Positions 2,250-61,571 of a DNA stretch of 64,000 bases are shown one piece after another. Source of the stretch: Corynebacterium matruchotii (GTDB lineage Bacteria > Actinomycetota > Actinomycetes > Mycobacteriales > Mycobacteriaceae); contig NZ_CP050134.2 of assembly GCF_011612265.2 (NCBI RefSeq), positions 744,001 through 808,000 on the forward strand, read 5' to 3'. The notes below the pieces were generated by a model. The model was not told the origin of the DNA and ran no database searches. It saw only the letters and a list, made by a program, of their open reading frames with translations. The position numbers and the translations under genes are program-made. How positions within the stretch are numbered: position 1 is the stretch's first letter; every line of letters starts with the position of its first letter.

Positions 2250-3461
2250 TTACCGCTCGTCGGGTGGCGATAACCGTTGGAAAACCATCACACACCCGCA
2301 GGCCAGCAGCAGCACGCCCGCGAGCGCCCACATGAGCGTCGAAAAGCCCACGGGCAGGCGGGCAGCAAGCGGGCCCAGGCTGGCGCCAATAAACAGCACC
2401 GCACCATTGACCGCCATACCACCGGCACGATAGGGTGCCGAAGCCTGGCCAAACAACGTAATCATGGTGGGCACGGCCATGGCAATACCCGCCACAAACA
2501 CCAGGCTGGCGACAATAATCCCCCACAGCGTTGCGGACAACAAACCCTCCAACAGCAACCCCAGGGCGGCGACAATAAAACTGGCGCGAGCAATGGTCCC
2601 TATGGGGATGCGGGCCGCGATGCGACCAATAACCAGCGACACGCACATGCTCGGCAGGCCCGCGAGTCGCAGCCAAATCAATTGTGACTGCGACATCCCA
2701 ATGCTCCCCAAGTGCGGTCCCAACGCGGAATACATGGCCACGAAACTCATGAGCACGGTCACGTGCGCTAAACACAGAAATTGCGTGCGCGGCTTTGCGA
2801 CGATCTGGCCAACCACCACAAAACTCTGCCTCATGCTGCCGGCCGTGGTGGCGTGGGGAATCTCCACCATGCGTCGCGTCGGGAAGAGTGATAGAAAACA
2901 CAAAATAAGGAGAATCGTGCTGCTGAGGAAAACCGCCCGCCACGTGGCGAATGTGAGATTGATCGCAGCGGCAAATACCTGACCGACAATGCCGGCCACC
3001 AAGAACGCGGTGGACATGGCCCCGATCGCCGTGGGGCGGTGGGTGATTGGTAACGCCTCGGCAAGGTAGGCCAGGGCGATGGGGGCGAAACTCGCGGCCG
3101 AAAACCCCTGCAATCCCCGGAGCACACCAAGCGTCGGCAGGTTTGGTGCCATGGCACAGCAGGCGGTGGTGAGGATCAGAAGCGTCATGCCGCAGAGCAG
3201 GATTTTCTTGCGGCCATACCGGTCAGAGATCGGCCCCCAGATGAGAAAACCGCTGGCGTAGCACAGGCTAAACGCGGTGGAGAGGGCGAGGGTGGCATCC
3301 CCGCCAAGACCGCGGCCGACCGGCGCGATCAGCGGGATGGCCAGATAGAGCTGGGTGAGTACTACAAGTGCGGTAGCCACCAGGAACACCACGGTGCTGG
3401 TGGTGGCTGGATACTCCGGTGCGTGGTCGGGCGATGGTGGTTGTGATGGTCGTTGTGACAT
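2250..3461 (-). CDS. MFS drug-efflux-type transporter
   Basis: A 403-aa integral membrane protein with about 12 hydrophobic helices. The MFS signature GPISDRYGRK lies in the loop between helices 2 and 3, and the overall look is that of proton-driven Bcr/CflA or DHA1 exporters. A longer reading from TTG at 3479 is possible, but ATG at 3461 has a GAGG box 8 nt upstream and is preferred. It is divergent from a TetR-family regulator, and two copies of one palindrome lie in the gap. One copy sits 14 bp upstream of this start. Substrate is unknown. Repression of the exporter by the neighbouring regulator, relieved by a toxic ligand, is the usual arrangement. Confidence 0.85.
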   Translation of the reverse strand: MSQRPSQPPSPDHAPEYPATTSTVVFLVATALVVLTQLYLAIPLIAPVGRGLGGDATLALSTAFSLCYASGFLIWGPISDRYGRKKILLCGMTLLILTTACCAMAPNLPTLGVLRGLQGFSAASFAPIALAYLAEALPITHRPTAIGAMSTAFLVAGIVGQVFAAAINLTFATWRAVFLSSTILLILCFLSLFPTRRMVEIPHATTAGSMRQSFVVVGQIVAKPRTQFLCLAHVTVLMSFVAMYSALGPHLGSIGMSQSQLIWLRLAGLPSMCVSLVIGRIAARIPIGTIARASFIVAALGLLLEGLLSATLWGIIVASLVFVAGIAMAVPTMITLFGQASAPYRAGGMAVNGAVLFIGASLGPLAARLPVGFSTLMWALAGVLLLACGCVMVFQRLSPPDER

Positions 3462-3474
3462 GCGAAACCTCAAT

Positions 3475-3538
3475 TCCAACTTTTTGGTTGGAGTTGAGTA
3501 TAGGCGACCGTGGCATAATTTCCAACCTTTTAGTTGGA
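3475..3538. promoter_or_regulatory. Two TetR-type operators between MFS and TetR genes
   Basis: Two 18-bp palindromes with identical arms, TCCAAC-N6-GTTGGA, lie at 3475-3492 and 3521-3538, 46 bp apart centre to centre. The second extends to TTCCAAC/GTTGGAA. Identical arms in a divergent TetR/MFS gap point to binding sites of the adjacent regulator. Confidence 0.85.
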
Positions 3539-3631
3539 ATTGTCGCGGTACACTGCTAGAGACCGCGACACCACCGTTGGCATTGCCGCGGCCCGCCTAT
3601 CCCACAATCCCCCTCACCGCAAAGGACCCCC

Positions 3632-4225: not shown

Positions 4226-4227
4226 CC

Positions 4228-7808: not shown

Positions 7809-9149
7809 ATGAATCATTATCCGATTCCGCGGGATTACCCGGAATACCAGTCGCCCCCGAAAAAGGTATCCGATGGGCGGCGGTTTTCCATCTATGCGGC
7901 GCTTGACGCCGTGTTCATTGTGGTGGCCTTGGGGTTGGCGTTGTGGCTGGCCTACATTCTGTTGGTGGGGTCGTTCGTGTGGTCGGTCAAACTGGTCATC
8001 CCCCTGACGTTTGGGTGGGCCACCCTGGCGTATTTGGCGCTCCCCAGGCTGCACCAGCTCTTCACACTATTATATGTGCCTAACTATTTTATTGGTAGGA
8101 CGAAAACCGTGGATGGGATTTTAGGGGACCCGGTCAACCTGGCGTTCGACGGCACAGAAACAGACGTGCACGCCGCCATGCGGAACGCGGGGTGGGTGCC
8201 AGCCGACCCCATCACATTACGGTCCTCGTGGAACATCATCATTTCCTCGGTGTTCGGCACCTCATACCCGCGGGCCCCCGTGTCAGACCTGTACCTGTTT
8301 GACACCAAACAGGATTTCGCCTACCAGCAGGAGGTGTCGGGTAATGCGTCACAGCGGCACCACGTGCGGTTTTGGCGGGTACCGGAAGGGTGGGTACTCC
8401 CGGGCGGTCACCGGGCGGATTGGCTGGCCGCCGGCACCTACGACCGGTCGGTGGGGTTTTCCAGCTTCACATTCCAATTCACCCACAAGGTGGATGCTGA
8501 CACCGACCTGGAGCGAGACTACATTGTGAAAACCCTACGGTTCAGCGACCACGACATTGGGGTGGAGGTGATCCGGGACTTCTCCACCGCCTACCACCAG
8601 CGCAACGGCGGGGGCGACAAAATCAACACCGACGGAAACCTGCCGATCATCGACGTGCGCGATGCCGCCCATCGCACCCCCATGCCGGCGGCTAAGAAAT
8701 CGCTCCGGAAGTGGAAAGACCCGGCCGACCATGGGGTGCCGCCCGTGTCACTCCTTGTTGCCGGCGGGCTGCTTGTCCTCAACATTGTGGGGGCAATCCA
8801 GCTAGGCATAGTCGCCCTGACCGGCCAGGATTGGGGTTGGCTGCTTATCGACGACGGTGCCGACGAACCCTGGTGGATCCTGCTGCTCATGCCATTCATG
8901 TCCCTCATCGAGATTTTCCTGCTGGTAGGCACCCTCCTGCGGCACAAATGGGCCCGCATCGGGCTCATGGTGTTGTGCGTGATCTCTGCGGTACAAACAC
9001 TTGTAGCATTAACGGGGGAAACCACATCGTTCCGGGCCGTGTTGTTCGCATTCCTATCGGTGTTTGTGGTGTTGGGGGTAAGTGGGGATAAAGTCCGGGA
9101 ATGGGTGTCGGGGGAGCATACAACGCTGCGAACCAAGCAGCAGGCATAA
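7809..9149 (+). CDS. LssY C-terminal-domain membrane protein
   Basis: A 446-aa protein. Two N-terminal helices (about residues 28-80) are followed by a soluble domain with the features of LssY_C (PF14067): GTETDVHAAMRNAGWVPAD, SDLYLFDTKQDFAYQQE, HHVRFWRVP, and a WLAAGTYDRSVGF segment. Three or four hydrophobic helices close the protein (about residues 315-430). LssY_C domains occur alone or after PAP2 phosphatases. Their activity is not established. The gene follows the alpha/beta-hydrolase with 13 nt between them and has GGGAG before its ATG. Confidence 0.78.
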   Translation: MNHYPIPRDYPEYQSPPKKVSDGRRFSIYAALDAVFIVVALGLALWLAYILLVGSFVWSVKLVIPLTFGWATLAYLALPRLHQLFTLLYVPNYFIGRTKTVDGILGDPVNLAFDGTETDVHAAMRNAGWVPADPITLRSSWNIIISSVFGTSYPRAPVSDLYLFDTKQDFAYQQEVSGNASQRHHVRFWRVPEGWVLPGGHRADWLAAGTYDRSVGFSSFTFQFTHKVDADTDLERDYIVKTLRFSDHDIGVEVIRDFSTAYHQRNGGGDKINTDGNLPIIDVRDAAHRTPMPAAKKSLRKWKDPADHGVPPVSLLVAGGLLVLNIVGAIQLGIVALTGQDWGWLLIDDGADEPWWILLLMPFMSLIEIFLLVGTLLRHKWARIGLMVLCVISAVQTLVALTGETTSFRAVLFAFLSVFVVLGVSGDKVREWVSGEHTTLRTKQQA

Positions 9150-9183: not shown

Positions 9184-10872
9184 ATGAACAAAAGATCCGT
9201 GATGGTATCCGTCATTCTCGCGGCCGTTGCGGTTGTCACCCCGACGGCAACCGCGGAACCCGCCAACCCCGACGGCCTGGTTGCCGCCTACCATCTCACC
9301 ACCAAAGACGGTTGGTCCAATGATCTACAAAGCATTGTGTGGAACGAAAAAGCCAAACACTACGATCTGTACTTCCTCCACTCCGCTGACGGCGCCGAAA
9401 ATCCACTAGGGCCCAGAGGCCAAGACTGGTACCACACCACAACCACCGACTTTGTGCACTTCACCGATCAGAAACAAGCCATACCCGCCAGCGGTGGACA
9501 CGCCACCGACGGGTGGAAATCCGCCTGGACCGGTTCCGTCATCAACCGCGGCGGCACCCCCACCGCCTACATTTCCGGCCTGAAGAAAACCGACGGTTCC
9601 CAAAACATTTGGGCCGTGGCGAGCACCGACGGGGGCGCCACCTTCACGAAACCACTCAACGACGGTAAACCCGTACTCGACATCACCGCCCCCAGCGCCT
9701 CAGTCAACCGTACCGACGAACGCGACCCCTACGTTTTCACCTACAACGGCAAAACCCTCATGTATGTGGCCGAAGGCGACCACATCGGGGTGTACCGCTC
9801 TACCGACGGCATCCGTTGGACCAAGGCTGATGCGGCAGCGGAGGCAAAAATCCAGCCGGCAACCTTCTTCCGCGGCCACACCTGGGCCGATAACGCACCG
9901 ATCGAATGCCCCGTCCTGAAAACCATGAAAACCCCCGCCGGTGACAAACAAGTTCTTTTCTTCGGCGCCAAAGACGCCAGCCGCGGGGAAACCACCGGCA
10001 CCTACTACACGGTGGGGCACCTCGACGCCAACGGCATGTTCGTCGCCGACACCGACACCCAACGCCTCGACCACGGTCCCGACTACTATGGTGCCAACTT
10101 CACCGGCAGCACCGACATCAGCACCGCGGAAGACACCATCACCTCCCTGGGCTGGGTGGGCAACTGGAACTACACGGCCGATGGGGTACACGCCGCCGAC
10201 AACGGCAGTGGCCCCTACCTGCGCCGACTAGGGTCTTACAGCCTGGCCAGGGAGCTCACCCTGGGGGCGGACAACCGTATCACCCAAAAACTAAAAACCA
10301 GCGACCTGAAATACCGCAATGTGAAAACCCACACCGGCGTGACCAAAGACAAGCCCGTCTCCGCCAGCGGAAAACCTTGGGTTGATCGGAAAGACACTAA
10401 TGGCGACGTGTATGGGCTTTACGACGTACCAAACCAGGATGCTGCCCAAAAACACACTCTGCGCTTCCGTAACATGGCTGGTAACTACACGGGTCGGATC
10501 TACATTGACCTGTGGCAGGGTGGCGACTGGGTGCGGTTCAACTACGACCCCACCGACGGCTGGTATAACGTGAAGGCTCGCGCCGGGGAGCTTGACAACA
10601 GCAAGAAGGGGCAGGATTCCACCCACTACTATTTTGATGGGCTTTTGGGTAACGGCAATGGGTACAGTGCCCAATCCTTGGTGCAGGACCAGCGGGACAT
10701 CACCCTAGAGGTGTACACCGATACCACCTCGGTGGAGTTCGTGTTCCCCAATGGACACACCTTCACGATCGCTAGGTTCTCCCAGTCGGACAAGCAGGAC
10801 TTCAAAGTGTTTACCGAGGACCCGACCGGCAAGAACACCGTCGACATTGAGGTGGGGGACGTGGGGAGGTAA
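9184..10872 (+). CDS. Secreted GH32 glycosidase (levanase/sucrase type)
   Basis: A 562-aa secreted enzyme. The signal peptide MNKRSVMVSVILAAVAVVTP is followed by a likely cut near ATA-EP. The five-bladed GH32 domain shows the three catalytic acids: nucleophile Asp47 in WSNDLQS (canonical WMNDPNG), the transition-state Asp in ERDPYVF (about 180-182), and acid/base Glu241 in IECPVL. A C-terminal beta-sandwich with LRFRNMAG and FVFPNGHTF follows. GH32 enzymes split sucrose, levan or inulin, releasing fructose outside the cell. The changed nucleophile motif (S for M, LQS for PNG) is unusual. TAGAAT sits 7 nt before the ATG with no Shine-Dalgarno, suggesting a leaderless start. An upstream extension to 9082 overlaps the previous gene and is rejected. 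Confidence 0.88.
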   Translation: MNKRSVMVSVILAAVAVVTPTATAEPANPDGLVAAYHLTTKDGWSNDLQSIVWNEKAKHYDLYFLHSADGAENPLGPRGQDWYHTTTTDFVHFTDQKQAIPASGGHATDGWKSAWTGSVINRGGTPTAYISGLKKTDGSQNIWAVASTDGGATFTKPLNDGKPVLDITAPSASVNRTDERDPYVFTYNGKTLMYVAEGDHIGVYRSTDGIRWTKADAAAEAKIQPATFFRGHTWADNAPIECPVLKTMKTPAGDKQVLFFGAKDASRGETTGTYYTVGHLDANGMFVADTDTQRLDHGPDYYGANFTGSTDISTAEDTITSLGWVGNWNYTADGVHAADNGSGPYLRRLGSYSLARELTLGADNRITQKLKTSDLKYRNVKTHTGVTKDKPVSASGKPWVDRKDTNGDVYGLYDVPNQDAAQKHTLRFRNMAGNYTGRIYIDLWQGGDWVRFNYDPTDGWYNVKARAGELDNSKKGQDSTHYYFDGLLGNGNGYSAQSLVQDQRDITLEVYTDTTSVEFVFPNGHTFTIARFSQSDKQDFKVFTEDPTGKNTVDIEVGDVGR

Positions 10873-11703: not shown

Positions 11704-12498
11704 TTAAAAATCGACGCGAACGAAATACATGCCTTTATTCCACTTCAACATGAGAAAAATCAGGCGGTAGCTCATTGGTAATTGGGAGCGGAGCTTTGGT
11801 GCCAGCCGGTCAAGGAAACTAAACTCCACGGTTACGTTTGTGACGGTGGTGCTCCATTTCCGTGGCGAATATGGGTCTTTGACCTTAAACGGCATTTCCG
11901 CGGGGGTGCCCTTTTTCTCTAGCATGCGTTCGCTGCGCTTGGTGGCGTCTGGGGATTCGGCGTCATACACCATGCGGCCGCCGGGAAAGGCGGTGCCGAA
12001 GGCGTCGATAAGCGAAGAAACGTCGGCGACCTGGAAATAGAAAAACACGCCCCCGGCCAGGGCAATAACCCCGCGGGAGGCGTCAACTTTACTTAGCCAC
12101 TCGTGATTGGTGGCGGAGTAGGGGAGATCAATCTCATTGTCGGCCTTGGGTACCCACCGGTGCCGCAGCTCGATGACGTCGGGAAGATCCAGGTTGTAGA
12201 TAGTGCACTCGTGGCCGGAAAGGTCCTCTGCCAGCATGTCCAGGCCGCAACCAATATTGACGACCGCGGCGCCCGGGTGCGTTTCCAAGTACGCCCGTGC
12301 CTCCTGCACCAGAATCATGTGCCGCAGGCCGTACACCAGTTCGGGAAACCCATCCATTGGCTGGGCAGTGGTGCCTTCCTGCGCCGCAATCTCCATGGCC
12401 TTGTGCGCCCACGGGTCGGGGAATAGCTCGGGCCACCGGTCACTCGCTTGCGCTCTACCGAAGAGCGGATAAAAAAGCGTTTGGGAAACATTATCCAT
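11704..12498 (-). CDS. Class I SAM-dependent methyltransferase (LCM/TcmP-like), copy 1
   Basis: A 264-aa paralogue of the next gene, the same length and collinear throughout. Shared blocks include DNVSQTLFYPLFGRA, GAAVVNIGCGLDMLAEDLSG, YNLDLPDVIELRHRWVPKAD and the C-terminal YRLIFLMLKWNKGMYFV. It is the promoter-proximal gene of the pair. In the minus-strand upstream DNA, TAGGCT lies about 14 nt before the ATG and could be the -10 box. Function is inferred from family only. Confidence 0.85.
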   Translation of the reverse strand: MDNVSQTLFYPLFGRAQASDRWPELFPDPWAHKAMEIAAQEGTTAQPMDGFPELVYGLRHMILVQEARAYLETHPGAAVVNIGCGLDMLAEDLSGHECTIYNLDLPDVIELRHRWVPKADNEIDLPYSATNHEWLSKVDASRGVIALAGGVFFYFQVADVSSLIDAFGTAFPGGRMVYDAESPDATKRSERMLEKKGTPAEMPFKVKDPYSPRKWSTTVTNVTVEFSFLDRLAPKLRSQLPMSYRLIFLMLKWNKGMYFVRVDF

Positions 12499-16014: not shown

Positions 16015-16025
16015 CGTCGATAAGC
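16015..16025 (+). repeat. CGTCGAHAAGC element upstream of aceE
   Basis: Exact copy (T form) of the 11-mer that recurs 21 times in the window. It lies 69 bp upstream of the aceE start, in gene-free DNA. Confidence 0.8.
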
Positions 16026-16228: not shown

Positions 16229-16669
16229 ATGAACGTTCAAAAACCCGAAGGGAAAAACACCACTCTCACCACAACCGATGGAATCGCCGCCCGGCTTGGC
16301 GTCTCCCATGGATTGATAGTGCAAGAGGTAGGCTGGGACGAGGATTGCGATTCCACGCTCAGCGAAGCAATCGAAGATGCTATCGGCTCCGAATTGCTCG
16401 ACGAAGACAGCTACGAAATCTGCGACATTGTGCTGCTGTGGTGGCGAAGTGACGACGGCGACCTGGTAGACGGGCTTGTCGACGCCGTCCGGCCGCTCGC
16501 CGACACCGGTCGCGTCTGGCTACTCACCCCCGGTAACGGAAAGTCCAATGCTCTGGCCCCCGGAGACATCGCCGAATCCGCGCAACTCGCTGGCATGGTG
16601 CAAACCAAAGCCGAACGGTTCGGTGACTGGCAGGGAAGCTGCCTCGTCCGCCGCGGCAATAAACAATAA
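16229..16669 (+). CDS. DUF3052 family protein
   Basis: A 146-aa acidic protein with the family's features: IAARLGVSHGLIVQEVGWDED, a middle DSYEICDIVLLWWRSDDGDL, and the end QTKAERFGDWQGSCLVRRG. DUF3052 proteins are small actinobacterial proteins of unknown role, often next to aceE as here (divergent). The start is ATG at 16229 (MNVQKPEGK). Six codons further upstream are readable from TTG. A TATCAT box at 16214-16219 lies 9 nt before the ATG with no Shine-Dalgarno, fitting a leaderless mRNA. Confidence 0.85.
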   Translation: MNVQKPEGKNTTLTTTDGIAARLGVSHGLIVQEVGWDEDCDSTLSEAIEDAIGSELLDEDSYEICDIVLLWWRSDDGDLVDGLVDAVRPLADTGRVWLLTPGNGKSNALAPGDIAESAQLAGMVQTKAERFGDWQGSCLVRRGNKQ

Positions 16670-17851: not shown

Positions 17852-17862
17852 CGTCGACAAGC
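17852..17862 (+). repeat. CGTCGAHAAGC element after cobD
   Basis: Exact copy (C form) beginning 3 bp after the cobD stop codon. Confidence 0.8.
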
Positions 17863-18735: not shown

Positions 18736-19752
18736 CTAGAACCGTTGATCGTCCCGCTTGGCGAATTTTTCGTAATGGTTGGGGTGCTGATTGCCGTAGC
18801 GTGAGCGCCGCGGCCGCGACCCCTGCGCCGCCGTGCTTGTGCTTTGCGACGCCGCCTCCGTCGGGGCCTGCTGGGCCACTGGTGCCGCTGAGACTATCGG
18901 GGCCGCCGAGTCTGCCTGCGGTTCCGGGTCCGGCTCACGTTCCGGGGTGGCCGCGGCCTGCGCCGCCATCTCGGCCTCTTCCTCCCGCAACCTCCGCCGT
19001 TCCCGGGCCTCCGACCAGAGGAAATACCCAAACCCCAGTGGGGCCATGATGCCGAAGGCAATCCATTGGAAACCGTAGGAAAGATGATTGCCCCGATCCA
19101 GCTTGGGGATGGGAATAAAATGCAGCAACCCCGGCTGGTTATCGGAAAGCTGCACATAGTCCTTGGCTAGCGTTAACCCTTCGATCTGGCCGATCTGCTC
19201 CGTGTTGATGCCATACACCTGCTTCGGATCCACATCGGTGCGGGGTGCGGTTTGGGGCTGTTGCTCATCGACCCGGGCGTGCGCCAGGATCGTCACCTCC
19301 TCGGTTGGTGCCGGCGGGATCGTGGTTTCCTTGTCCGCGGTGGTGGGCTCAAAACCCCGGTTGACCAGGATGATCTCCCCGGAATCCAATTGGAACGGGG
19401 TGAGCGCATGCAGCGCCGGGGTGGATTCCACCGGCCGCAGCCGCAGAATCACCTCCTTCTCGGTGAGATACCGGCCGGTGAGGGTCACCCGCATCCACTC
19501 CTGATCGTCCTTAATCACACCGTCGCTGGTGAAGATATCCGAATAGGGTTTCGGATCCACGTTGAATGCGTCTTCGATGTGATTATTGCGGTTCACGATC
19601 TGTGCGTCCTTGCCCAATTGCCAGGGCGACAAAATGGTGAAAGCCGCGTAGGAGAAACTGATGACCAGCAGGAAGGTAATGACCCAGCCGGGGGTGATAA
19701 AGACACGCCACCCGGTTTGTGCGGTTCGGGTGGTGCGAGAAATGCGTGCCAT
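18736..19752 (-). CDS. SURF1 family cytochrome oxidase assembly protein
   Basis: A 338-aa membrane protein. It has one helix near residues 20-42 with TPGWVITFLLVISFSYAAF, a periplasmic domain with WMRVTLTGRYL, ILRLRPVESTPALHALTPF and EIILVNRGFEP, and a second helix near 228-248 beginning with SYGFQWIAFGIMAPLGFGYF. These are the SURF1 hallmarks. The family helps insert haem a into cytochrome aa3 oxidase. The C-terminal 90 residues are a charged, Ala/Pro/Gln-rich cytoplasmic tail, usual for actinobacterial members. The preceding DNA to 19818 is short and holds the promoter. Confidence 0.9.
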   Translation of the reverse strand: MARISRTTRTAQTGWRVFITPGWVITFLLVISFSYAAFTILSPWQLGKDAQIVNRNNHIEDAFNVDPKPYSDIFTSDGVIKDDQEWMRVTLTGRYLTEKEVILRLRPVESTPALHALTPFQLDSGEIILVNRGFEPTTADKETTIPPAPTEEVTILAHARVDEQQPQTAPRTDVDPKQVYGINTEQIGQIEGLTLAKDYVQLSDNQPGLLHFIPIPKLDRGNHLSYGFQWIAFGIMAPLGFGYFLWSEARERRRLREEEAEMAAQAAATPEREPDPEPQADSAAPIVSAAPVAQQAPTEAASQSTSTAAQGSRPRRSRYGNQHPNHYEKFAKRDDQRF

Positions 19753-22152: not shown

Positions 22153-23286
22153 ATGACCACCGTTGCCGACGCGATCGCCGTTTTGGATCGTGCCTACCCA
22201 CCCCACCTTGCGGAAAGCTGGGACAAGGTTGGTCTCATTTGCGGCGACCCAGCCGACCCCGCCGACACGATCCTCCTGGCCTTGGACTGCACCCAGGAAG
22301 TCGCCGACGCCGCCGTGGCCGCCGGCGCCGACATGCTGGTCGTCCACCACCCGCTGCTGCTGCGCGGCGTGACCAGCGTGGCCGCCAACACCCCCAAGGG
22401 CAAAATCATCCACACGCTCATCCGCAACGGTGTGGCCCTGTTTGCCGCCCACACCAACGCTGACTCCGCCCGGCCTGGCGTCAACGACCAATTGGCCTAC
22501 CTGGTGGGCGTCACCCCGGGGCGGCCCATCAAACCCATCAGGCGGGGCTTGGACAAGTGGGGAGTACAGGTGCCCGTCGACCAGGCCCCAGCATTGAAGT
22601 CGGCCCTGTTCGCCGCCGGAGCGGGAAACATTGGCGAATACTCCGAATGTGCATTCGCCTGGGAGGGGGCCGGGCAGTTTCGGCCGTCGACAAGCGCCCA
22701 GCCCGCAATCGGCAACCGGAACGAATTAACCAAGGTCACAGAGCTGCGGATCGAATTCGTCGCCCCCAGCAGGCTCCGCGAAACCATCATGGGTGCGCTA
22801 CGAACCGCACACCCGTACGAGGAACCTGCCTTCGACGTGGTGGCCACTGAACCCACCCAACCCCTGGAGGAAGCCTACGGACTGGGGCGCATCGGGGACC
22901 TGCCGCACCCCATGCGATTCGCCGACTTTGTGCAGCAGGTCGCCGATGCCCTGCCCGTCACCGAGTGGGGCATTCGTGCCGCCGGCGACCCCGACCAAAT
23001 GGTGCAAACAATCGCCGTCAGCTCCGGGTCTGGCGACAGCTTCCTTGACGCCGTGACCGGCCTGGGCGTGGACGTGTATGTCACCTCTGACCTGCGTCAC
23101 CACCCGGCCGACGAACATCTGCGCGGCAGTGGCCCCCTGCTGATCGACACCGCCCACTGGGCCAGCGAATACCCCTGGACCTCGCAGGCCGCCGACATCT
23201 TGGCTACCGCACTGCCACACAGTAACGTATCAGTGCTACCTATTCGTACCGATCCGTGGACCATTTCGGCCCACCCCACCGACTAA
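22153..23286 (+). CDS. NIF3-like dinuclear metal center protein
   Basis: A 377-aa protein. The N-terminal [19 protein letters not shown], the metal-binding [10 protein letters not shown] and [19 protein letters not shown], and the C-terminal [14 protein letters not shown] and [13 protein letters not shown] give the family's metal ligands. A middle insertion (about residues 130-240) is the PII-like domain of long Nif3 proteins. The family has been called GTP cyclohydrolase I type 2, but that activity is not generally proven. It sits 3 nt after cobC and 16 nt before the zinc-ribbon gene in a conserved actinobacterial row. Confidence 0.92.
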
Positions 23287-41568: not shown

Positions 41569-41579
41569 CGTCGACAAGC
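41569..41579 (+). repeat. CGTCGAHAAGC element after thrC
   Basis: Exact copy (C form) 8 bp after the thrC stop. Confidence 0.8.
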
Positions 41580-43798: not shown

Positions 43799-45148
43799 AT
43801 GAATGCTGTCCTCATTGCCGTCCTCGTGATGCTCATCTTGTCCGTCGCCCGGGTGCATGTTGTTATTTCCCTGTTTATCGGGGCGCTGGTTGGTGGTCTC
43901 ATCAGCGGTATTGGCCTCGGGCCCACCATGGTGGCGTTCCAGGATGGCCTAGCCGGTGGGGCGAAAATCGCCCTGAGTTACGCGCTGTTGGGGGCGTTTG
44001 CCATGGCGGTCGCCAGTTCCGGCCTGCCCACGCTGTTGGCCAGATGGATCATGTCCAAGATTGGCAACACCGAGGAATCCGCGAATCGTCGCGCGGTTCT
44101 GGTAACAAAATGGCTGATGGTGGCGGGCGTGTTGGCAATGGCCATTATGAGCCAAAACCTGATTCCCGTCCACATTGCCTTCATCCCGCTCATTATTCCG
44201 CCGCTGCTCGGGGTGATGAATAAACTCCGTATCGACCGGCGCCTGATTGCCTGTGTGCTCACTTTCGGCTTGGTCACCACCTACATGTGGATCCCGGTGG
44301 GGTTCGGTTCGATCTTCCTTAATGAAATTCTCTTGGGCAATATTCGCAAGGCCGGCCTGGACACCACCGGAATTAATATTATGCAGGTCATGTCAATTCC
44401 GGCGTTGGGCATGATCGCGGGGTTGATTATCGCCGTGGGGTTCTCCTACCGGAAGCCCCGCGACTACGAAAACCGCCCCCTGGAGGCCGCCCACTCGGTG
44501 GAGGAGGTTACGCGCTACAAGGTCATTGTGGCGATCATTGCGATCTTGGCCACGTTTATCGTGCAGGTGGTGATGCAGTTGGCGGATTCGGAGGCGGACT
44601 CCCTGCTCATTGGTGCGCTCACCGGCCTGGCGGTGTTCCTGGTGACCGGCGCTGTGAACTGGAAGGAAGCGGATGACGTGTTTACTTCCGGCATGAAAAT
44701 GATGGCGCTCATTGGGTTCATTATGATTACCGCCCAGGGCTTCGCCGCCGTCATGACCGCCACCGGTCAGGTGGAGACGCTTGTCGACGCCTCTGCGGCG
44801 CTGTTCGGCAGCAATAAGGCGATGGGGGCGTTGGTGATGCTCATCGTGGGCTTGATTGTGACGATGGGTATCGGGTCATCGTTTTCAACGCTGCCGATCA
44901 TTGCCACGATCTATGTGCCCCTGTGCCTGGCCTTGGGCTTCAGCCCCGCCGCCACGGTTGCCATTGTGGGTGCCGCCGGCGCGCTTGGCGACGCCGGGTC
45001 GCCCGCATCCGACTCCACCCTAGGGCCCACCGCCGGGTTGAACGCCGACGGCCAGCACGACCATATCCGCGACTCGGTGATTCCCACCTTCCTGCACTAT
45101 AACCTGCCGCTGATCGTGTCCGGGTGGGTGGCAGCCATGGTGCTTTAG
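43799..45148 (+). CDS. Na+/H+ antiporter-family permease
   Basis: A 449-aa membrane protein with about 11-12 helices, starting MNAVLIAVLVMLILSVARVH. Conserved stretches include GALVGGLISGIGLGPTMVAF, SQNLIPVHIAFIPLIIPPLL, GIGSSFSTLPIIATIYVPLC and GDAGSPASDSTLGPTAGLNA near the end. The latter two are typical of the NhaC-like/COG2056 antiporter group. Ion specificity is not visible. It follows the DUF2231 gene by 24 nt, and TATTAT stands 5 nt before its ATG. Confidence 0.85.
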   Translation: MNAVLIAVLVMLILSVARVHVVISLFIGALVGGLISGIGLGPTMVAFQDGLAGGAKIALSYALLGAFAMAVASSGLPTLLARWIMSKIGNTEESANRRAVLVTKWLMVAGVLAMAIMSQNLIPVHIAFIPLIIPPLLGVMNKLRIDRRLIACVLTFGLVTTYMWIPVGFGSIFLNEILLGNIRKAGLDTTGINIMQVMSIPALGMIAGLIIAVGFSYRKPRDYENRPLEAAHSVEEVTRYKVIVAIIAILATFIVQVVMQLADSEADSLLIGALTGLAVFLVTGAVNWKEADDVFTSGMKMMALIGFIMITAQGFAAVMTATGQVETLVDASAALFGSNKAMGALVMLIVGLIVTMGIGSSFSTLPIIATIYVPLCLALGFSPAATVAIVGAAGALGDAGSPASDSTLGPTAGLNADGQHDHIRDSVIPTFLHYNLPLIVSGWVAAMVL

Positions 45149-45155: not shown

Positions 45156-46685
45156 CTAGTTGATGCAGCGTGGTCCGTTGCCGCCGGCATCAATGGTGGG
45201 GGAGGCGCTGTTTTTATCCATGGCAGTGCCCTCCTGACCGACCACGCCCGCCCCGGAGCCACTACTGTCGTCGGCGCTGGTGGGGCCAGCATAGTCTGCG
45301 GCGAGAACGACAGTGATGGTGCCATTGGTGAGCGTGGCGTCGGCAACAACCGGGAGTCCGCCTAATTCTTGGGCGATCGCTGCCGCTTCCTCGTTGGTTT
45401 CTTGCGGCGCCAAGACTTGCGACTGGCTGTAGGTGCCCACCTCGGCGTTGCCGGTATCGCCGACCGTGTAGCCCGCGCTCTTGAGGACGCTTGCCACGGT
45501 GGTGGCCAGCCCGGTGGTCCCCGAGGCGTTGAGTACCGTCACTGTCGAGGTTGCTGCGGGTTGTGCCGACGTGGTGGCGGCCGCGGTGGAGCTGCCCAGG
45601 TTCTCGTTGCCGCCCAGGAGCTGGTCAAAGAATTTATGCACCTGGCGGGGATCCACCGTCACCACAGATTCACCATTGTCGCCCGTGCCGTCAATAGAGG
45701 TCACGGGGATGGTATTGAATTTCACATTGCCGCCGGTCAGGTTAGACATTTGTACCGCCAGTTGGGAGAGGTCCCAGTTGCTGTCGAGGGTGAGTGACCG
45801 CTTGGCGGCGTCCTGGAGCTTCAGCAGCGTGCCGCCCTGCAACATGTTGGTCGAAAGTATCTTCGAAACCAGGGAGGCCATGTAGGCCTGCTGCCGCACG
45901 ATACGATCCAGGTCGCCGCGCGGTAAACCATGCCGTTGCCGCACGAACGCCAACCCCTGCGCCCCGTTGAGGACCTGCCTGCCGGCGGGGAAATTCGCCC
46001 CCGAAAACTCGTCGTTGACCGGGGCGTTGAGGCATACCTCGACCCCGCCCACGGCGTCGGTAAGCAGCACGAACCCTACCAGGCCGACCTCTGCGTAGTG
46101 GTCCACGCTAATGCCAGTCAGGTCGGAGATGGCATTGATGAGCCCGCGCTGGCCCGCGGCCTTGGCCTTGCGCTCCAGGCTGGGGCCCTCTTTCTCCCCC
46201 TCGGCGAGGAGTCGCTCCTTTTCGATGGCCTTGTGGCCGGAGTATACGCCGTTGATTTTGGTGTTCCCGATGTCATCGTCGTGAATATAGGTGTCGCGGG
46301 GGATAGAGATCGCAGTTGCCGATGACCCGTCGTTGGGGATGCGGATCACCATGATGGTGTCCGTGTTGTCCGCCTCCTCGTCGCCGGCGTGGAGCATTGC
46401 TATTTCCTCCGGGGTGAGGGGGTTGCCCTGCGCATCCGTGCGAGAATCATTGCCCACGAGCAAAACATCCATGGCGCCGTCGGGGGATCCGGCATTAAGC
46501 GGTATTGATGGCGAATCTATTTTTGGTATGAGGAAATACCCCACCCCGGCCACCACCAGCATGATGGCAGACAGCAGCGCAATAAGCGCCTTGACGGCGG
46601 GCGGGCCCTGCTGTCTAACGGCGGGGCCAACATTCGACCTAGATGACGAATTACGGGAATTACGGTGATGGGACGTAGCACTCAT
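45156..46685 (-). CDS. LytR-CpsA-Psr family cell-wall glycopolymer ligase
   Basis: A 509-aa membrane-anchored enzyme. A cytoplasmic Ser/Asn/Arg tail precedes one helix (about residues 33-53). The LCP domain follows with MDVLLVGNDSRTD, NTDTIMVIRIPNDG, the arginine motif ISIPRDTYI, INGVYSGHKA, and FVRQRHGLPRGDLDRIVRQQ. Residues about 385-470 form a LytR_C domain (STVTVLNASGTTGLATTVAS). In corynebacteria such proteins join arabinogalactan to peptidoglycan using polyprenyl-phosphate donors. It is convergent with the antiporter gene, with 7 bp between stops. Confidence 0.93.
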   Translation of the reverse strand: MSATSHHRNSRNSSSRSNVGPAVRQQGPPAVKALIALLSAIMLVVAGVGYFLIPKIDSPSIPLNAGSPDGAMDVLLVGNDSRTDAQGNPLTPEEIAMLHAGDEEADNTDTIMVIRIPNDGSSATAISIPRDTYIHDDDIGNTKINGVYSGHKAIEKERLLAEGEKEGPSLERKAKAAGQRGLINAISDLTGISVDHYAEVGLVGFVLLTDAVGGVEVCLNAPVNDEFSGANFPAGRQVLNGAQGLAFVRQRHGLPRGDLDRIVRQQAYMASLVSKILSTNMLQGGTLLKLQDAAKRSLTLDSNWDLSQLAVQMSNLTGGNVKFNTIPVTSIDGTGDNGESVVTVDPRQVHKFFDQLLGGNENLGSSTAAATTSAQPAATSTVTVLNASGTTGLATTVASVLKSAGYTVGDTGNAEVGTYSQSQVLAPQETNEEAAAIAQELGGLPVVADATLTNGTITVVLAADYAGPTSADDSSGSGAGVVGQEGTAMDKNSASPTIDAGGNGPRCIN

Positions 46686-48734: not shown

Positions 48735-48745
48735 CGTCGACAAGC
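48735..48745 (+). repeat. CGTCGAHAAGC element between glnA and its terminator
   Basis: Exact copy (C form) 3 bp beyond the glnA stop codon. Orientation is opposite to glnA transcription. Confidence 0.8.
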
Positions 48746-50797: not shown

Positions 50798-50839
50798 TCG
50801 GCGCTTACAGGCGGGTCCCTCGGGAGGGCGTCGGCAAGC

Positions 50840-53821: not shown

Positions 53822-53832
53822 GCTTTTCGACG
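53822..53832 (-). repeat. CGTCGAHAAGC element upstream of lipB
   Basis: Exact copy (A form, minus strand) 44 bp before the lipB start. Confidence 0.75.
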
Positions 53833-55603: not shown

Positions 55604-58423
55604 CTAGTCGTCGATGTTGAACGCTTCGGGTGGCGGGCAGGAGCACACGAAGTGCCGGTCGCCGAACGCCTCATCAATGCGGCGCACCGGCGGGAAATAC
55701 TTCACGCCCTGCCGCAGGGACGTCACCGGGTAGGCGGCCTGCCGCCGGCTGAATGCATAGCCCCACTCGTCGTCGGACACCGACTCGGCGGTGAATGGGG
55801 CGTGATGCAGCACGGACTCTTCGAATGTGATGCTTCCCTGGGCGATCTCCTCGATCTCGGCGCGGATGCTGCGCATGGCGGCAATAAACCGATCCAACTC
55901 GGCCTTATCCTCCGACTCGGTGGGCTCCACCATGAGCGTGCCCGCCACCGGGAACGAAAGGGTGGGGGCGTGGAAACCATAATCCACCAGGCGTTTTGCC
56001 ACATCCGTGGCGGACACGCCGGTGTCGTGCTCCAGGCCGCGCAGGTCGAAGATGCATTCGTGGCCCACCAGGTCGTTCTTGCCGGTGTAGAGCACCGGGA
56101 AGGAGTCGGACAATTCCTTTGCCAGATAGTTGGCGTTTAACACGGCGGTTGCAGAGGCCCGCTCCAGGCCCTCGGCGCCCATCATGGCGACATACGCCCA
56201 GGCGATGGGCACCACGCCGGCCGAACCATAGCGGGCCCCCGAGGTCGGCACCCCAATATTGATGGGGGTTTCCTTGGTGAGATCGACCGCATTGGCGTCG
56301 GTAGGCAGGAACGGCACCAAATGCTCTGCCACCGCCACCGGTCCCACGCCTGGGCCGCCGCCACCGTGTGGAATGCTGAACGTCTTGTGCAGATTCAGGT
56401 GGGAAACATCGCCCCCGAATTCGCCCGGGCGTGCGATACCGGTCAGGGCGTTCAGGTTAGCACCGTCGATATACACCTGACCGCCGACGGCGTGCACCTT
56501 TTGGCACACCTCCCGTACCGTGTCCTCAAACACCCCGTGGGTGGACGGGTAGGTAATCATAATGCCGGCAATGTTGTCCGCATGCTTTTCCAGCTTGGCG
56601 TCCAAATCGCCCAGGTCAATGGAGCCGTCCGGGGCGGTGGCCACCACCACAACCCGAAGCTTCGCCAGGGTTGCCGAGGCGGCATTGGTGCCGTGGGCGG
56701 ATTGCGGAATGAGAATGATGTCTCGCTGATGCTCACCATTGGCCTGGTGATAGCGTCGAATAGCGAGCAGGCCGGCAAGCTCACCCTGCGAACCTGCGTT
56801 CGGTTGCACCGAAACTTTCGCATACCCAGTGATCTCCGCGAGCCACTCCTCCATTTCGTCGAGCAGCGCCCGCCACCCGGCGGTCTGCGAATCGGGCGCA
56901 TACGGGTGCACGTTGGCGAACTCCGGCCAGGTGATCGGCTCCATACCGGTGGTCGGGTTCAGCTTCATGGTGCACGACCCCAGCGGGATCATGGTGCGAT
57001 CCAACGCCAAATCCTTGTCCTTCAACTCCCGCAGGTAGCGCAGCATTTGGGTCTCCGAATGCACCGACGAGAAAATGGGGTGCGTCAAGGTTTCCGTGGT
57101 GCGCGGCAGCGGCAGCGGGCGGGCCTCCGACTCGGTTGCGGTGGCACCGAACAACTGTGCGAGCTTTTCGACGTCCTCCCGGGTGGCGCCCTCGCCAAAC
57201 GACACCGAAACCTTCGAATCCCCCAGGGAACGCACCAGGTAGCCGGCCTCCGCCGCGGCAGCCACAATCGCCGGGGCATCACACTCCACCGTCACCGTGT
57301 CGAAAAAGTTTTCGTGCACCACCTTATCGCCCACGGCCTGGGCAAAATCGGAAGCATACTGGTGCACCCGCTCGGCAATCGCCCGCAAACCGGCCGGGCC
57401 ATGCCAAATGGCGTACATGGCGGCGCACACCGCCAACAGCGCCTGGGCGGTACAAATATTACTGGTGGCTCGCTCCCGGCGAATATGCTGCTCCCGGGTT
57501 TGCAGGGCCAGGCGGTAGGCGGGGCGGCCTTCGGCATCCTTCGACACGCCAACAATCCGGCCGGCCAACTGGCGCTTCAACTTGTCAGTGACCGCCATGA
57601 ACGCGGCGTGCGGGCCGCCGAAAAACAGGGGCACACCAAACCGTTGCGACGAACCCACCGCAATATCCGCCCCCAAGGTGCCGGGGGACTCCAACAATTG
57701 CAGGGCCAGAAGATCCGTGGCGATCGCGGCCAGGCCACCCCGGGAATGAATATCCTCAATGGCGCCGCGAACATCGACAATATCCCCCTCGGTGCCGGGG
57801 TAGGCCAACACCACGCCAATCAGTGACTCGCCCACCACACCGCTGGAAACGTCGGCGATTTCTACCTCCAAGCCCAGGGTGCGGGCCCGTTCGGTGGTTA
57901 CCGCCACAACCTGCGGGTGCAGGCGGCGATCCAAAATAACCCGATTACCCTTCTTATTGGTGCGGGCCATGAGCCCCACAGCCTCAGCCACCGCGGTGGC
58001 CTCATCGAGCAGCGACGCATTAGCGATGGGCAGGCCGGTGAGTTCCTGCACCATGGTTTGGAAGTTCAATAATGCTTCCAGCCGTCCCTGGGAGATTTCC
58101 GGCTGATATGGGGTGTAGGCCGTGTACCAGCCTGGATCCTCCACTACATTCCTACGGATAACCGGCGGGGTGATCGTGTCAAAATAGCCTTGGCCATAAA
58201 ATGATTGAAGCACCACGTTCTGCTGCGCATAACTGCGGAGCTTCCGTAGTGCTTCTTCTTCGGTGAGGGCCGGTCCGAGGGCGAGCGTGGTGGTGCGAAT
58301 ATCCTCCGGGACCGCGGCGTCGATAAGCGCTGCTAGTGTGGGGTAACCAACACTGCCGAGCATCTCGGCCGTTTCCTTGCTGTCGGGGCCGATATGGCGA
58401 TCAGAATAACTGGCGGGCGTCAT
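55604..58423 (-). CDS. gcvP: Glycine dehydrogenase (decarboxylating), P protein
   Basis: A 939-aa fused-type P protein (both halves in one chain) that decarboxylates glycine with PLP and loads the H protein. Markers: [20 protein letters not shown] at the start, [20 protein letters not shown], the glycine-rich [20 protein letters not shown], and the PLP lysine in [21 protein letters not shown] at 58423 ([10 protein letters not shown]) has AGGGAG 11 nt upstream. C. glutamicum lacks this system, as I recall, while several other corynebacteria have it, which helps place the organism. Confidence 0.96.
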
Positions 58424-58590: not shown

Positions 58591-59277
58591 ATGCGCTTGT
58601 CCGAATCTGTTGTTTACACCACCACAGCCATGAGTTCTATCGTGTTGTGTTGCGTGCTTTTCCTCAGCGGATCCGCCGCTGTACCGCCGTCGCTTATCGA
58701 CGAGCAACCCACAGCCGCCAGCCCCGACCCCATAGACGCCGAAACCCCAGCACCCGACGACACCACAACCATGGCAGCCAACCCCACCACCCTCGGGGAA
58801 GCCCTGGGAGTGGGCGACGGCACCTTCGACCCCACGGTGGACGGCTTTCACCTCTTCGACCCCTGCGCCGAAATCACCACCGAACAATGGGAAAAACTCG
58901 GGTGGAAACCACTGCCCGGCCAACAAGTCCGGTCCGATGCGGACCGCAAATTCTGCACCTTCATCCCCGCCACCGACCGGCCCGAATGGGTAACTGGCTT
59001 CGCTGAATCCGATGTGCTAGACCAGCGGCAACTCGACCAGCAAGGCCTGCTCATCACCGATGTGAAGGTCACCGCCCCCGATGGCTTCTACCTGTATAAA
59101 TTCAGCAAGGACGAAAACGAATTCTTCTGCTCCGCGGCAGTAGCCACCAGCCGCGGCCGGGTGAGCTTCACCTTCGGCGCCAACCCGGACATCCCCACCG
59201 AAAAGAAACGCACCTGCCAGGTAGCGGCCGACATGCTGCGGGACATCCTCGAATTACCGCCGGCGGCTACGCAATAA
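58591..59277 (+). CDS. Secreted DUF3558-like protein
   Basis: A 228-aa exported protein. The signal core SSIVLCCVLFLSGSAAV is followed by a Thr/Ala/Pro linker (about residues 35-75). The DUF3558-like domain has FDPCAEITTEQWEKLGW, a second cysteine in RKFCTFIP, then FFCSAAVATSRGRVSFTFG and KKRTCQVAADMLRDI. The four cysteines probably form two disulfides. No clear lipobox is present, which is unusual for this mostly lipoprotein family. Start ATG 58591 (MRLSESVVYT) is chosen over TTG at 58585. Function unknown. Confidence 0.75.
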   Translation: MRLSESVVYTTTAMSSIVLCCVLFLSGSAAVPPSLIDEQPTAASPDPIDAETPAPDDTTTMAANPTTLGEALGVGDGTFDPTVDGFHLFDPCAEITTEQWEKLGWKPLPGQQVRSDADRKFCTFIPATDRPEWVTGFAESDVLDQRQLDQQGLLITDVKVTAPDGFYLYKFSKDENEFFCSAAVATSRGRVSFTFGANPDIPTEKKRTCQVAADMLRDILELPPAATQ

Positions 59278-59330: not shown

Positions 59331-61043
59331 TTACAGGTCAAGATCAGCGGCGAAATTGCCGGTCTCAAGCCGATCCTTAATGGTGGCGGTGAACCGGCCG
59401 GCGTCGGCACCATCAACCACCTGGTGGTCATACGTAAACGGCATATAGCACATCTGGCGGATGGCGATGGCGTCGGCGCCATCCACCGAAACCACCACCG
59501 GCCGCTTCTGAATAGCAGCCGTGCCCAAGATACCGGCCTGCGGCGGCACCAGGATCGGGGTGTCCGACAGCGCGCCCTCGGAACCAATATTGGTGATCGT
59601 GAAGGTGGCGCCGAACAATTCGGTGGGCTTGAGCTTATTATTCCGGGCCCGATCCGCCAGGTCGGCAATGGCCTGGGCGATCTGCGGCAACGTCAGCTCC
59701 TGGGCCTTGTGGATTACCGGGGTGAGCAGGCCCCGCGGAGTATCCACGGCAATGGCCACATTCACATCCTCGTGGTAGGTCATTTCCTTGGTCTCGGCGT
59801 TATACGACGCATTCACGTTCGGATGGCTGACCAAAGCCTCCACCACGGCCTTCACGAAGAACGGCAGGTACGTCAGGTTCACCCCATGCTTCGCCTGGAA
59901 CTGTGGCTTGGACTGCTTCCGCAGTTCGGCAATCCGGGTCATATCCACCTCTTGCAGGTGCGTGAGCTGGGCAGACAGCTGGAGTGCCTCCACCATCTTG
60001 GCGGCGGTGATCTCCCGAATCCGGTTCACCTTCTTGGTGGTGCCAATCAGCTCTGCCTTGGCCGGATCCACGGACTTGGTGGACCAGTTTGCCCGCGGAC
60101 CGGTCGGCTCGGCAGGTGCCTGGGCAGCCGGTGCCTCCGCGGCGGCGGGTGCCTGTGCCGCAGCCGCAGCAGCCAACACATCCTGCTTACGGATCCGCCC
60201 ACCAATGCCGGTGCCGGTCACCGTGGTCAGATCAATGCCATGCTTGTCGGCCAGCTTGCGCACGAGCGGTGTCACATACGGCAGCTTCTTGCCGGCATTT
60301 ACCTTTGCCGCCGGTGCTGCTGGGGTGGTCGGCGCTGGTGTCGGAGCAGGTGTGGGCTCTGGCTTGGGTGCTGGGGCCGGTGCTGCCGGGGCCGGGGTGG
60401 GTTCGGGTTGTGGCTCCGGGGTCGGTGCCGGTGCGGCGGGAGCGGGGGCGGCGTTCTTGTCGCCGATGCGGGCAATAACATCACCCACCTCAACCGTGTC
60501 ATCCTCTTCGAACAAAATTTCTACGATGGTGCCGGCGATGGGGGAGGGGACCTCCGTGTCGACCTTGTCCGTCGACACCTCAAGCAGCGCCTCATCCACC
60601 GCGACGGTGTCTCCCACCGACTTCAACCACTGGGTAATGACGCCCTCGGTGACCGACTCGCCCAACTCCGGCATCACCACATCGACGGCGCCCGAGGTGG
60701 CAGGCGCAGCCGGTGCGGCGGGTGTTGCAGGTGCGGCGGCGGCCGGGGCCGGCTCCGGTTCAGCAGGTGCGGCCGGGGCTGCCGGCGTGGTGGCCGGGGC
60801 CTCACCAGCGTCACCGATGATCGCAATCACATCACCGACCTCAATGGTGTCGTCTTCCTCGGCGCGGATCTCCAGCAAAACACCGGCGACCGGGGACGGC
60901 ACCTCCGTATCCACCTTGTCGGTAGAAACCTCAAGCAACGGTTCATCAACCGAAACCGTGTCCCCTACAGCCTTCAACCACTGTGTGATCGTGCCTTCAG
61001 TAACTGATTCGCCCAGCTCGGGCATCACAACGGAGTGTGCCAT
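59331..61043 (-). CDS. aceF: Dihydrolipoamide acyltransferase E2 (two lipoyl domains)
   Basis: A 570-aa E2 core protein. There are two lipoyl domains (about residues 2-78 and 120-195), each with the lysine in [14 protein letters not shown], and they are joined by Ala/Pro linkers. Next comes a peripheral-subunit-binding domain ([20 protein letters not shown], then [14 protein letters not shown], about 250-290). Last is a catalytic domain ending [14 protein letters not shown] with the active histidine. C. glutamicum AceF carries three lipoyl domains, so this one is a shorter architecture. In this group one E2 serves the combined pyruvate/2-oxoglutarate dehydrogenase, so sucB is a synonym in many annotations. 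AceE is the matching E1. Confidence 0.95.
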
Positions 61044-61173
61044 TGTTGTTATGACTCCTAGAAAAGCTTGTTGTATAGACTCTTAATACCCCTATGAGAG
61101 TACCTTTTTTACACGCGTCATGTGACTTTTACCATCAGCCACTGAAAAATAATTCCCCCTACAATTGTCTATC

Positions 61174-61560
61174 GTGTTCAATCTCTTTCGCAGAAAACGT
61201 ACCAACTCCAGCAACAAACCAGTTCGCGGCCCCGGTGAAACTATCCGCAAGGCCGACCTGGAATACCTCAAACAATGGGCCAACGACCGGGCCATGATCG
61301 AAGCCTTTGTGGAACCGGAAACCCTAGTGAACGAAATGTCCGTCGTGCTTGTCGACGTCACCGGGGATTTTACCCGCCGCAACATTGGCGGCCCCAAAGG
61401 CATCGACGTCATAGCGAAAGAGCTAGATGTGCCAATATATGACGTGGAAGAAACCGGCTACCCACCCCGAATGCGGCAAAAAATTGAACGCGATCGACTC
61501 CTCAAAAAGCGGGAAGAACAGCGGAAACGCCGCGAAAAATTCGAACGCGGCGAAACCTAA
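61174..61560 (+). CDS. Hypothetical 128-aa basic protein
   Basis: No family recognised. It starts VFNLFRRKRTNSSNKPVRGP. Residues 25-90 form an alpha/beta-looking domain (VEPETLVNEMSVVLVDVTGD, IDVIAKELDVPIYDVEETGY). The last 30 residues are an Arg/Lys/Glu helix. GTG at 61174 follows TACAAT (61160-61165) by 8 nt with no Shine-Dalgarno, so it is probably leaderless. Its stop lies 13 bp from the convergent pepA stop. Confidence 0.7.
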   Translation: MFNLFRRKRTNSSNKPVRGPGETIRKADLEYLKQWANDRAMIEAFVEPETLVNEMSVVLVDVTGDFTRRNIGGPKGIDVIAKELDVPIYDVEETGYPPRMRQKIERDRLLKKREEQRKRREKFERGET

Positions 61561-61571
61561 CGTCGAAAAGC
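61561..61571 (+). repeat. CGTCGAHAAGC element between convergent genes
   Basis: Exact copy (A form) beginning directly after the TAA of the 128-aa gene and filling the 13-bp gap to pepA. Confidence 0.8.

Follow-up and report, generated by a model that had tools for sequence, protein, structure and literature searches.

The 11-base, non-palindromic word CGTCGNHAAGC is very probably the DNA uptake sequence of the genus Corynebacterium. It recurs far above chance in a 64-kb stretch of the Corynebacterium matruchotii chromosome (the window; bases 744001-808000 of a single-contig genome of 2,866,540 bases), and it does so throughout that genome and in most of the Corynebacterium genomes that we counted. 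In one subclade the word is spelled CATCGNHAAGC, and between relatives that use the two spellings the same base has changed at many matching sites. A genome-wide switch of a single base is the mark of uptake-sequence dialects, and it is this comparison of genomes that chiefly points to an uptake signal.

Within the window there are 21 matches to CGTCGAHAAGC, where 100 dinucleotide shuffles gave a mean of 0.07 and a maximum of 1. An earlier note on this DNA had listed the same 21 copies, counting from the G; their positions and strands are all exact, the leading C that it reported is present in every one, and its chance expectation of about 0.1 copies is close to that of the shuffles. The 11-mer itself stands, and only the fixed A at position 6 has to be given up: because a further 12 copies read CGTCGBHAAGC (expected 0.39), the core is CGTCGNHAAGC, with 33 copies in the window.

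Across the 2.87-Mb genome CGTCGAHAAGC occurs 796 times and the reversed word 23 times. A 464-kb sample, consisting of the window and 20 evenly spaced 20-kb stretches, contains 206 copies of the core, or about 0.44 per kb, which extrapolates by proportion to about 1,270 genome-wide. The 11-mers in greatest excess in this sample are CGTCGAAAAGC (49 copies), CGTCGACAAGC (47), CGTCGATAAGC (28) and CGTCGTAAAGC (21), each expected fewer than 0.6 times under a third-order model, and a trained position weight matrix finds 202 sites scoring at least 16 in the real sequence and 7 in reversed DNA. Synonymous shuffling reduces the 133 coding core copies of the sample to 6.5 (standard deviation 2.1, maximum 11 in 100 shuffles) and the 22 copies in the coding DNA of the window to a mean of 1.05 (maximum 5 in 100 shuffles). 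The earlier note had proposed such a codon-aware null and counts in the whole genome and in related species as checks, and these came out in its favor; its suggestion that the DNA rather than the protein is under selection is likewise borne out, both by this excess and by the dialect switch described below, which is mostly synonymous. A short, non-palindromic word far above chance throughout the genome is what is expected of an uptake sequence.

Both strands carry the word, and it occurs inside genes as well as between them. Of the 206 copies in the 464-kb sample, 133 lie in genes, 72 are intergenic and one crosses a gene edge. Densities are 0.60 per kb in intergenic and 0.39 per kb in genic DNA, or 1.05 and 0.42 per kb in the 14 stretches with a GC content above 0.57; these values are approximate, since our in-house gene caller called few genes in low-GC stretches. 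Seven stretches with a GC content below 0.56, defined by GC alone, hold 36 copies in 140 kb, half the density elsewhere (170 in 324 kb). One antisense frame is preferred among the genic copies (77 of 133). Ten of the 13 core pairs less than 60 bp apart are inverted, including all six in which both copies are intergenic. The flanks show only weak preferences, mostly codon-phased, and we saw no AT-rich extension downstream of the core.

We also counted CGTCGAHAAGC in 151 Corynebacterium genomes drawn evenly from a larger group, with the reversed word as control. There are 98-1309 copies in 103 genomes, 29-65 in five and 3-23 in 43, and the control gives 2-30 across all 151; summed over the 103 word-rich genomes, forward and reverse copies number 23306 and 23390. 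At a threshold of 80 copies, 102 genomes carry the first spelling only, eight the second only, one both (G143), and 40 neither; 37 of these 40 have fewer than 26 copies of the first spelling and three have 33-65. Whole-genome totals of CGTCGNHAAGC are 1663 in C. pilosum, 1034 in C. haemomassiliense, 865 in C. pseudodiphtheriticum, 490 in C. lemuris and 324 in C. alimapuense, against 35 (control 37) in C. pygosceleis (G041). C. otitidis (L127) has a modest excess, with 55 core copies and 7 reversed.

Outside the genus the word falls away. In 140 genomes from 30 sister genera of the family, counts are near the control, the largest total being 90 in a 6.5-Mb genome with a control of 36; none of 295 other genomes across the phylum (eight of them from the same family) exceeds 50 copies, and 58 loci from other genera, 1.13 Mb in all, contain the two core spellings 10 and 9 times. 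We note a slight excess in three genomes of one genus outside Corynebacterium (G232, G245 and G268 of genus g23), which have 73-78 copies of CGTCGAHAAGC and 15-21 of the reversed word.

A second dialect and a one-base switch

The second spelling, CATCGNHAAGC, is carried by nine of the 151 genomes (at least 80 copies each) and is not found in the 64 kb of the window. In two genomes poor in the first word, G053 and G006, a k-mer search showed GGCGGCATCGGCAAGC to be abundant in the former and a related form in the latter. Totals of CATCGDCAAGC are 633 in G144, 531 in G053, 527 in G006, 512 in G105, 494 in G111, 412 in G143, 362 in G094, 316 in G138 and 89 in G073, with no more than 65 in any other of the 151 genomes and 0-11 in the reversed control. 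G143 is the sole second-dialect genome with more than 80 copies of the first word (100). There is a weak excess of the second spelling in G084 (44 copies, none reversed), and in the relatives G004 (34), G074 (55) and G011 (65) the second word stands above its level in most first-dialect genomes, as if some copies had been left over. Dialects that are limited to clades and differ at few bases are characteristic of uptake sequences.

Two loci show how the dialects relate. L079, from a second-dialect Corynebacterium metagenome-assembled genome (MAG), and L080, from the first-dialect Corynebacterium sp. ACRPO, are 78.6% identical over 19.4 kb. Nine of the ten aligned second-dialect copies of L079 match the same 11 bases in L080 except for an A to G change; of the 12 first-dialect copies of L080, nine match those L079 copies, two align to word-less sequence and one is unaligned. 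Because some copies align without gaps to homologous word-less sequence, the word appears to arise in place.

The larger comparison is of G006 (second dialect) with the ACRPO genome (G304), which align over 116.5 kb at 81.2% identity and include 62 of 64 second-dialect sites. At 35 of these 62 the only difference is at base 2, at seven base 2 (A to G) differs together with another position, three are identical and 17 differ otherwise, two neighboring sites being counted twice among the last groups because they recur in an apparently duplicated segment. Control sites, which have CATCGNH without AAGC, differ at base 2 only in 21 of 509 cases (Fisher p 1e-24 against 35 of 62), and among sites conserved at each of the remaining ten bases, base 2 is switched in 35 of 38, compared with 21 of 111 controls. 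The reciprocal comparison is similar: 54 first-dialect sites of G304 align (a further 40 did not align to the G006 sequence compared), and of these 33 differ at base 2 only, with an A in G006, seven have this A and a difference elsewhere, three have a C at base 2, nine keep base 2 and differ elsewhere, and two are identical.

Identity within the motif is 0.76-0.98 at every position except base 2, where it is 0.26. Flanking positions in phase with base 2 have identities of 0.61-0.77 downstream; upstream, one is at 0.48 and four (-2, -5, -11 and -14) are at 0.79-0.90, so that the contrast between base 2 and its flanks is clear on one side only. The 35 switched sites comprise 28 synonymous third positions, four Ile to Val changes and three intergenic sites, and no single reading frame therefore explains the switch. 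At greater distances (71-75% identity, six comparisons) retention of the word is low, from 3 of 21 to 5 of 10 aligned sites.

Competence genes and the Tad tree

The genome that contains the window encodes ComEA (247 aa) adjoining ComEC (558 aa; L030:10512-12928), and a Tad locus (L050:7864-12404) with TadZ, TadA, TadB, TadC and Flp-like, TadE-like and Rv3654c-like proteins. Such machinery belongs with an uptake sequence, and it is encoded equally in the species that are free of the word. ComEC is present in all 151 Corynebacterium genomes, a TadA-type ATPase in 76 of 76 (63 of 63 and 13 of 13 in two sets), DprA in 72 of 72 and a prepilin peptidase in 71 of 72 (67 above the family cut-off); ComEA lies beside ComEC at 27 of 28 loci examined. 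The seven genes of the tad locus are present whatever the word status, at 32 of 32 loci in one set and 72 of 73 in the set used for the tree, the exception being G073, where the locus is interrupted by a contig end.

A tree of TadZ, TadA, TadB and TadC from 73 genomes (FastTree, midpoint-rooted, four linked genes, branch support unexamined) has two deep clades. The word is found in none of the 20 genomes of clade I. Among the 53 genomes of clade II, 35 carry the first dialect, nine the second and nine none (G014, G133, G041, G062, G120, G039, G082, G132 and G084); these proportions are not frequencies, since the genomes were picked to cover both word-rich and word-poor members. The nearest relative of the window's genome in the tree is G136, a Corynebacterium MAG. 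A single subclade contains every one of the nine second-dialect genomes, together with G014, which has neither word, and with G004 and G304, which have the first dialect; this position suggests that G004 and G304 may have switched back from the second dialect to the first.

TadB and TadC share one reading frame in all 20 clade I genomes and never do so in the other 52 genomes of the tree in which both were found, and because the arrangement is confined to one clade of the tree it counts as a single event. We note that C. otitidis, which is outside the tree, also has TadB and TadC in one frame, along with its modest excess of the word.

Uptake and competing explanations

In the mechanism that we propose for these bacteria, which have a mycolate envelope, a competent cell would display a receptor for free DNA that carries CGTCGNHAAGC or, in the case of one subclade, CATCGNHAAGC; the best candidates for it are a minor pilin of the Tad/Flp pilus and a pilus-associated protein. 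The pilus would draw the bound DNA in to ComEA, a single strand would pass through ComEC, and recombination helped by DprA would follow. Since DNA bearing the word would enter more often, chance copies would be spread by recombination and accumulate throughout the genome (molecular drive), and a change in the taste of the receptor would lead to the conversion of many sites one by one, giving a dialect switch. A drive of this kind would explain why the word is in excess, why strand and frame make no difference to it, why one dialect nearly excludes the other and, above all, the one-base switch. We infer binding, uptake, a receptor and the transformability of these species from such patterns, and think it likely that Corynebacterium has an independently evolved third sequence-specific uptake system, the first outside the Pseudomonadota, with its receptor on the Tad/Flp pilus of a Gram-positive, mycolate-coated cell; most of the genus would then be naturally transformable, and sister species would have switched dialect genome-wide, once apparently back again.

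Several observations weigh against an uptake signal. At 20 of the 62 aligned sites of G006 and G304 there is no A to G change at base 2. Species with and without the word have the known competence genes equally often; the machinery thus does not predict the word, the presence of ComEC, DprA and prepilin peptidase does not track word status, and the word-free species may have lost either the specificity or an unseen part of the system. No receptor emerged from the proteins compared: on average the minor pilins of the Tad system lack electropositive character, and the word classes cannot be told apart by the net charge of their Flp, TadE and Rv3654c-like proteins. The loci studied showed only Tad-type pilins, no genome search aimed at ComP having been made. 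A scan for residues that set the reverted species, along with other first-dialect species, apart from every second-dialect species gave one clean column in TadZ among thousands tested; column 385 of the alignment is Glu in all nine second-dialect genomes, and the two reverted genomes and 27 of the 33 remaining first-dialect genomes have Gln there, a pattern that is probably due to chance. The scan also gave a weaker column in the Rv3654c-like protein, a single column in ComEA and five columns in ComEC, and we do not trust any of these columns as clues to the receptor. A correlation of the word with the length of the ComEC open frame was dropped, as these frames run from stop to stop and the trend follows the clades.

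A further such observation comes from C. phoceense (G138; L232 around 1117-2078), in which ComEA is without its helix-hairpin-helix end, ComEC is matched only over its middle part and the prepilin peptidase family has no match, as though competence had been lost recently and the word kept. Its 316 copies of the second word show no clear decay: the density is 0.219 per kb, compared with 0.181 in its sister G053 and 0.362 in G144, and the near-miss ratio is 1.29, compared with 2.10 and 1.16, so that these two measures do not support the expected decay either way. Finally, natural transformation in Corynebacterium is unreported in the open-access literature, judged by titles and abstract openings among the matches listed. 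Nor do these matches, from a literature that leaves out most subscription papers and all preprints, describe an uptake sequence in the genus, in agreement with the earlier note, which knew of no such element in corynebacteria.

Other readings account for the enrichment and not for the switch. The earlier note had left three possibilities standing, of which the uptake signal is now well supported and the other two, a Chi-type site and a site for a chromosome-organizing protein, are disfavored. A Chi-like site would steer a nuclease of the RecBCD, AddAB or AdnAB type and be enriched through double-strand break repair. The word shares with Chi and with FtsK-orienting polar sequences (KOPS) that it is short, non-palindromic and over-represented; its great, genome-wide abundance would suit Chi, and biased conversion could spread it too. 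Chi sites and KOPS are oriented by replication, however, and in the 464-kb sample the word shows no such orientation: relative to replication, 111 copies face in one direction and 95 in the opposite one (p 0.30, with the origin set near 1.4 Mb by a noisy GC skew and the terminus taken as opposite), the strands are balanced in both halves of the chromosome, and the bias relative to origin and terminus that the earlier note thought worth seeking is not seen there. An arrangement on both strands, in genes and between them, with no replication polarity, as seen in this sample, is that expected of an uptake sequence. A Chi-like site is unlikely also because 40 of the 151 Corynebacterium genomes have the word at background level or close to it, one deep clade of the tree accounts for 20 of its 29 word-free genomes, and many sites have changed the same base together; we know of no Chi word that is one base apart at corresponding sites of sister species.

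The wide distribution of the word and its many copies would also fit a site for a chromosome-organizing or segregation protein (KOPS for FtsK, a MatP-like site or that of a nucleoid protein), which we consider very unlikely: KOPS-type sites point from origin to terminus and the sample has no such bias, 40 of the 151 genomes have fewer than 80 copies of either spelling, and a regulatory protein, arguing from the switch, would need independent selection at hundreds of sites, altering one base at most of them, with no self-spreading. It is scarcely credible that the word is a dispersed repeat, a terminator hairpin or a remnant of a mobile element, for although the inverted close pairs could form hairpins, most copies are single, shared flanks are lacking, 133 of 206 copies lie in genes, and some copies of L079 and L080 align gap-free to word-less sequence. 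Mutation bias, codon preference or a context effect of mismatch repair or methylation, to which the synonymous position of the dialect base in the main frame might point, is just as hard to credit, since synonymous shuffling yields 20-fold fewer copies, intergenic DNA is richer in the word and not poorer, the switch extends to the Ile/Val and intergenic sites, and the five-base start without AAGC rarely switches alone.

An uptake signal can be compared with known systems. Word-based choice of DNA at uptake is, according to a 2025 paper, known for two families only, both in the Pseudomonadota (PMC12616744). The DNA uptake sequences (DUS) of the Neisseriaceae have ComP as their receptor. They are about 10-12 bases long and occur in hundreds to thousands of copies (2,787 to 5,918 in single Kingella genomes); there are eight dialects, which follow clades and of which some are one base apart, and one genome has two (PMC3630211). 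The Corynebacterium dialects likewise differ by a single base. The word itself is unrelated, having by eye only CGTC in common with the DUS ATGCCGTCTGAA (PMC5031613), its density of about 0.44 core copies per kb contrasts with the thousands of copies per Kingella genome (PMC3630211), and its host is an actinobacterium, in which a Tad/Flp pilus takes the place of a type IVa pilus. The uptake signal sequences of the Pasteurellaceae resemble the present case in their genome-wide enrichment of a short word, two subclade-confined dialects and inverted pairs (PMC12616744, PMC5217627); the word and the phylum are different, and the AT-rich downstream extension is not seen in Corynebacterium.

Within the same phylum, Micrococcus luteus also has ComEA, ComEC and tad genes (PMC4322843, PMC6370729), and its tad genes are required for transformation (PMC4322843); the term 'uptake sequence' is absent from that study. 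TadB and TadC are in one frame in the M. luteus tad-2 cluster (PMC4322843), as in Corynebacterium clade I; in clade II they are separate. For mycobacteria, PMC10526031 states that an uptake sequence has not been reported. A third family, in the Actinomycetota, would if confirmed mean that self-recognition evolves repeatedly, and would open many genomes and a clean dialect switch to comparative study. It would also predict that natural transformation occurs in this genus, whose members include skin, oral and industrial bacteria; word density could guide the choice of strains, and addition of the word to DNA could ease genetic work on harmless members.

Copies in the window and further observations

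By our own simple gene calls, 14 of the 21 CGTCGAHAAGC copies in the window are in genes and seven are intergenic; the earlier note had correctly seen intergenic copies and put their number at eight. The copies are as follows.

Matches to CGTCGAHAAGC:
2337..2347, plus strand, core copy CGTCGAAAAGC
8843..8853, minus strand, core copy CGTCGATAAGC
12003..12013, plus strand, core copy CGTCGATAAGC
16015..16025, plus strand, core copy CGTCGATAAGC, intergenic
16474..16484, minus strand, core copy CGTCGACAAGC
17852..17862, plus strand, core copy CGTCGACAAGC, intergenic
21219..21229, minus strand, core copy CGTCGATAAGC
21500..21510, plus strand, core copy CGTCGATAAGC
22685..22695, plus strand, core copy CGTCGACAAGC
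29958..29968, minus strand, core copy CGTCGAAAAGC
30568..30578, plus strand, core copy CGTCGAAAAGC, intergenic
35053..35063, plus strand, core copy CGTCGATAAGC, intergenic, in opposite orientation to the copy at 35100
41569..41579, plus strand, core copy CGTCGACAAGC, intergenic
44779..44789, minus strand, core copy CGTCGACAAGC
48735..48745, plus strand, core copy CGTCGACAAGC, intergenic
53822..53832, minus strand, core copy CGTCGAAAAGC
57163..57173, minus strand, core copy CGTCGAAAAGC
58318..58328, plus strand, core copy CGTCGATAAGC
58692..58702, minus strand, core copy CGTCGATAAGC
61347..61357, minus strand, core copy CGTCGACAAGC
61561..61571, plus strand, core copy CGTCGAAAAGC, intergenic

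Matches to CGTCGBHAAGC:
797..807, minus strand, variant core copy CGTCGTAAAGC
2792..2802, minus strand, variant core copy CGTCGCAAAGC
10416..10426, minus strand, variant core copy CGTCGTAAAGC
18841..18851, minus strand, variant core copy CGTCGCAAAGC
25905..25915, minus strand, variant core copy CGTCGGCAAGC
26031..26041, minus strand, variant core copy CGTCGTCAAGC
33874..33884, minus strand, variant core copy CGTCGCCAAGC
35100..35110, minus strand, variant core copy CGTCGTCAAGC
39559..39569, minus strand, variant core copy CGTCGCAAAGC
44983..44993, minus strand, variant core copy CGTCGCCAAGC
46055..46065, plus strand, variant core copy CGTCGGTAAGC
50829..50839, plus strand, variant core copy CGTCGGCAAGC, given in the earlier note as GTCGGCAAGC at 50830

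For the pair at 35053 and 35100 no flanking inverted repeat of at least 10 bases was reported. A longer motif upstream of the core was considered and rejected, being mostly codon phase, with the exception of GGCGG before the core in G053.

Elsewhere in the genome, the stretch L009 (bases 1-20000) has a GC content of 0.459 and a single core copy in 20 kb, and 13% of it was called coding by a caller trained on the pooled sample; it looks like an acquired island. Another sequence, TGCTGCGATAT, is present in 20 copies in the 464-kb sample, of which 18 are clustered on both strands of L011 (286001-306000) and the others are in L009 and L024; it is a local repeat unrelated to the core word.

A de novo k-mer search of word-free genomes (80 kb each of G147, G014 and G133, 60 kb of G084, and 40 kb each of G041, G062, G120, G132 and G128) gave no recognizable further dialect, in samples too small for a rarer word. 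In the 80 kb of G147 (L031-L033, L059) CTGTGGACAA occurs 10 times (expected 0.1) and resembles DnaA boxes, and CGGCGTCC occurs 111 times in G147 (expected 34) and 59 times in the 40 kb of G128 (L060, L069; expected 17).

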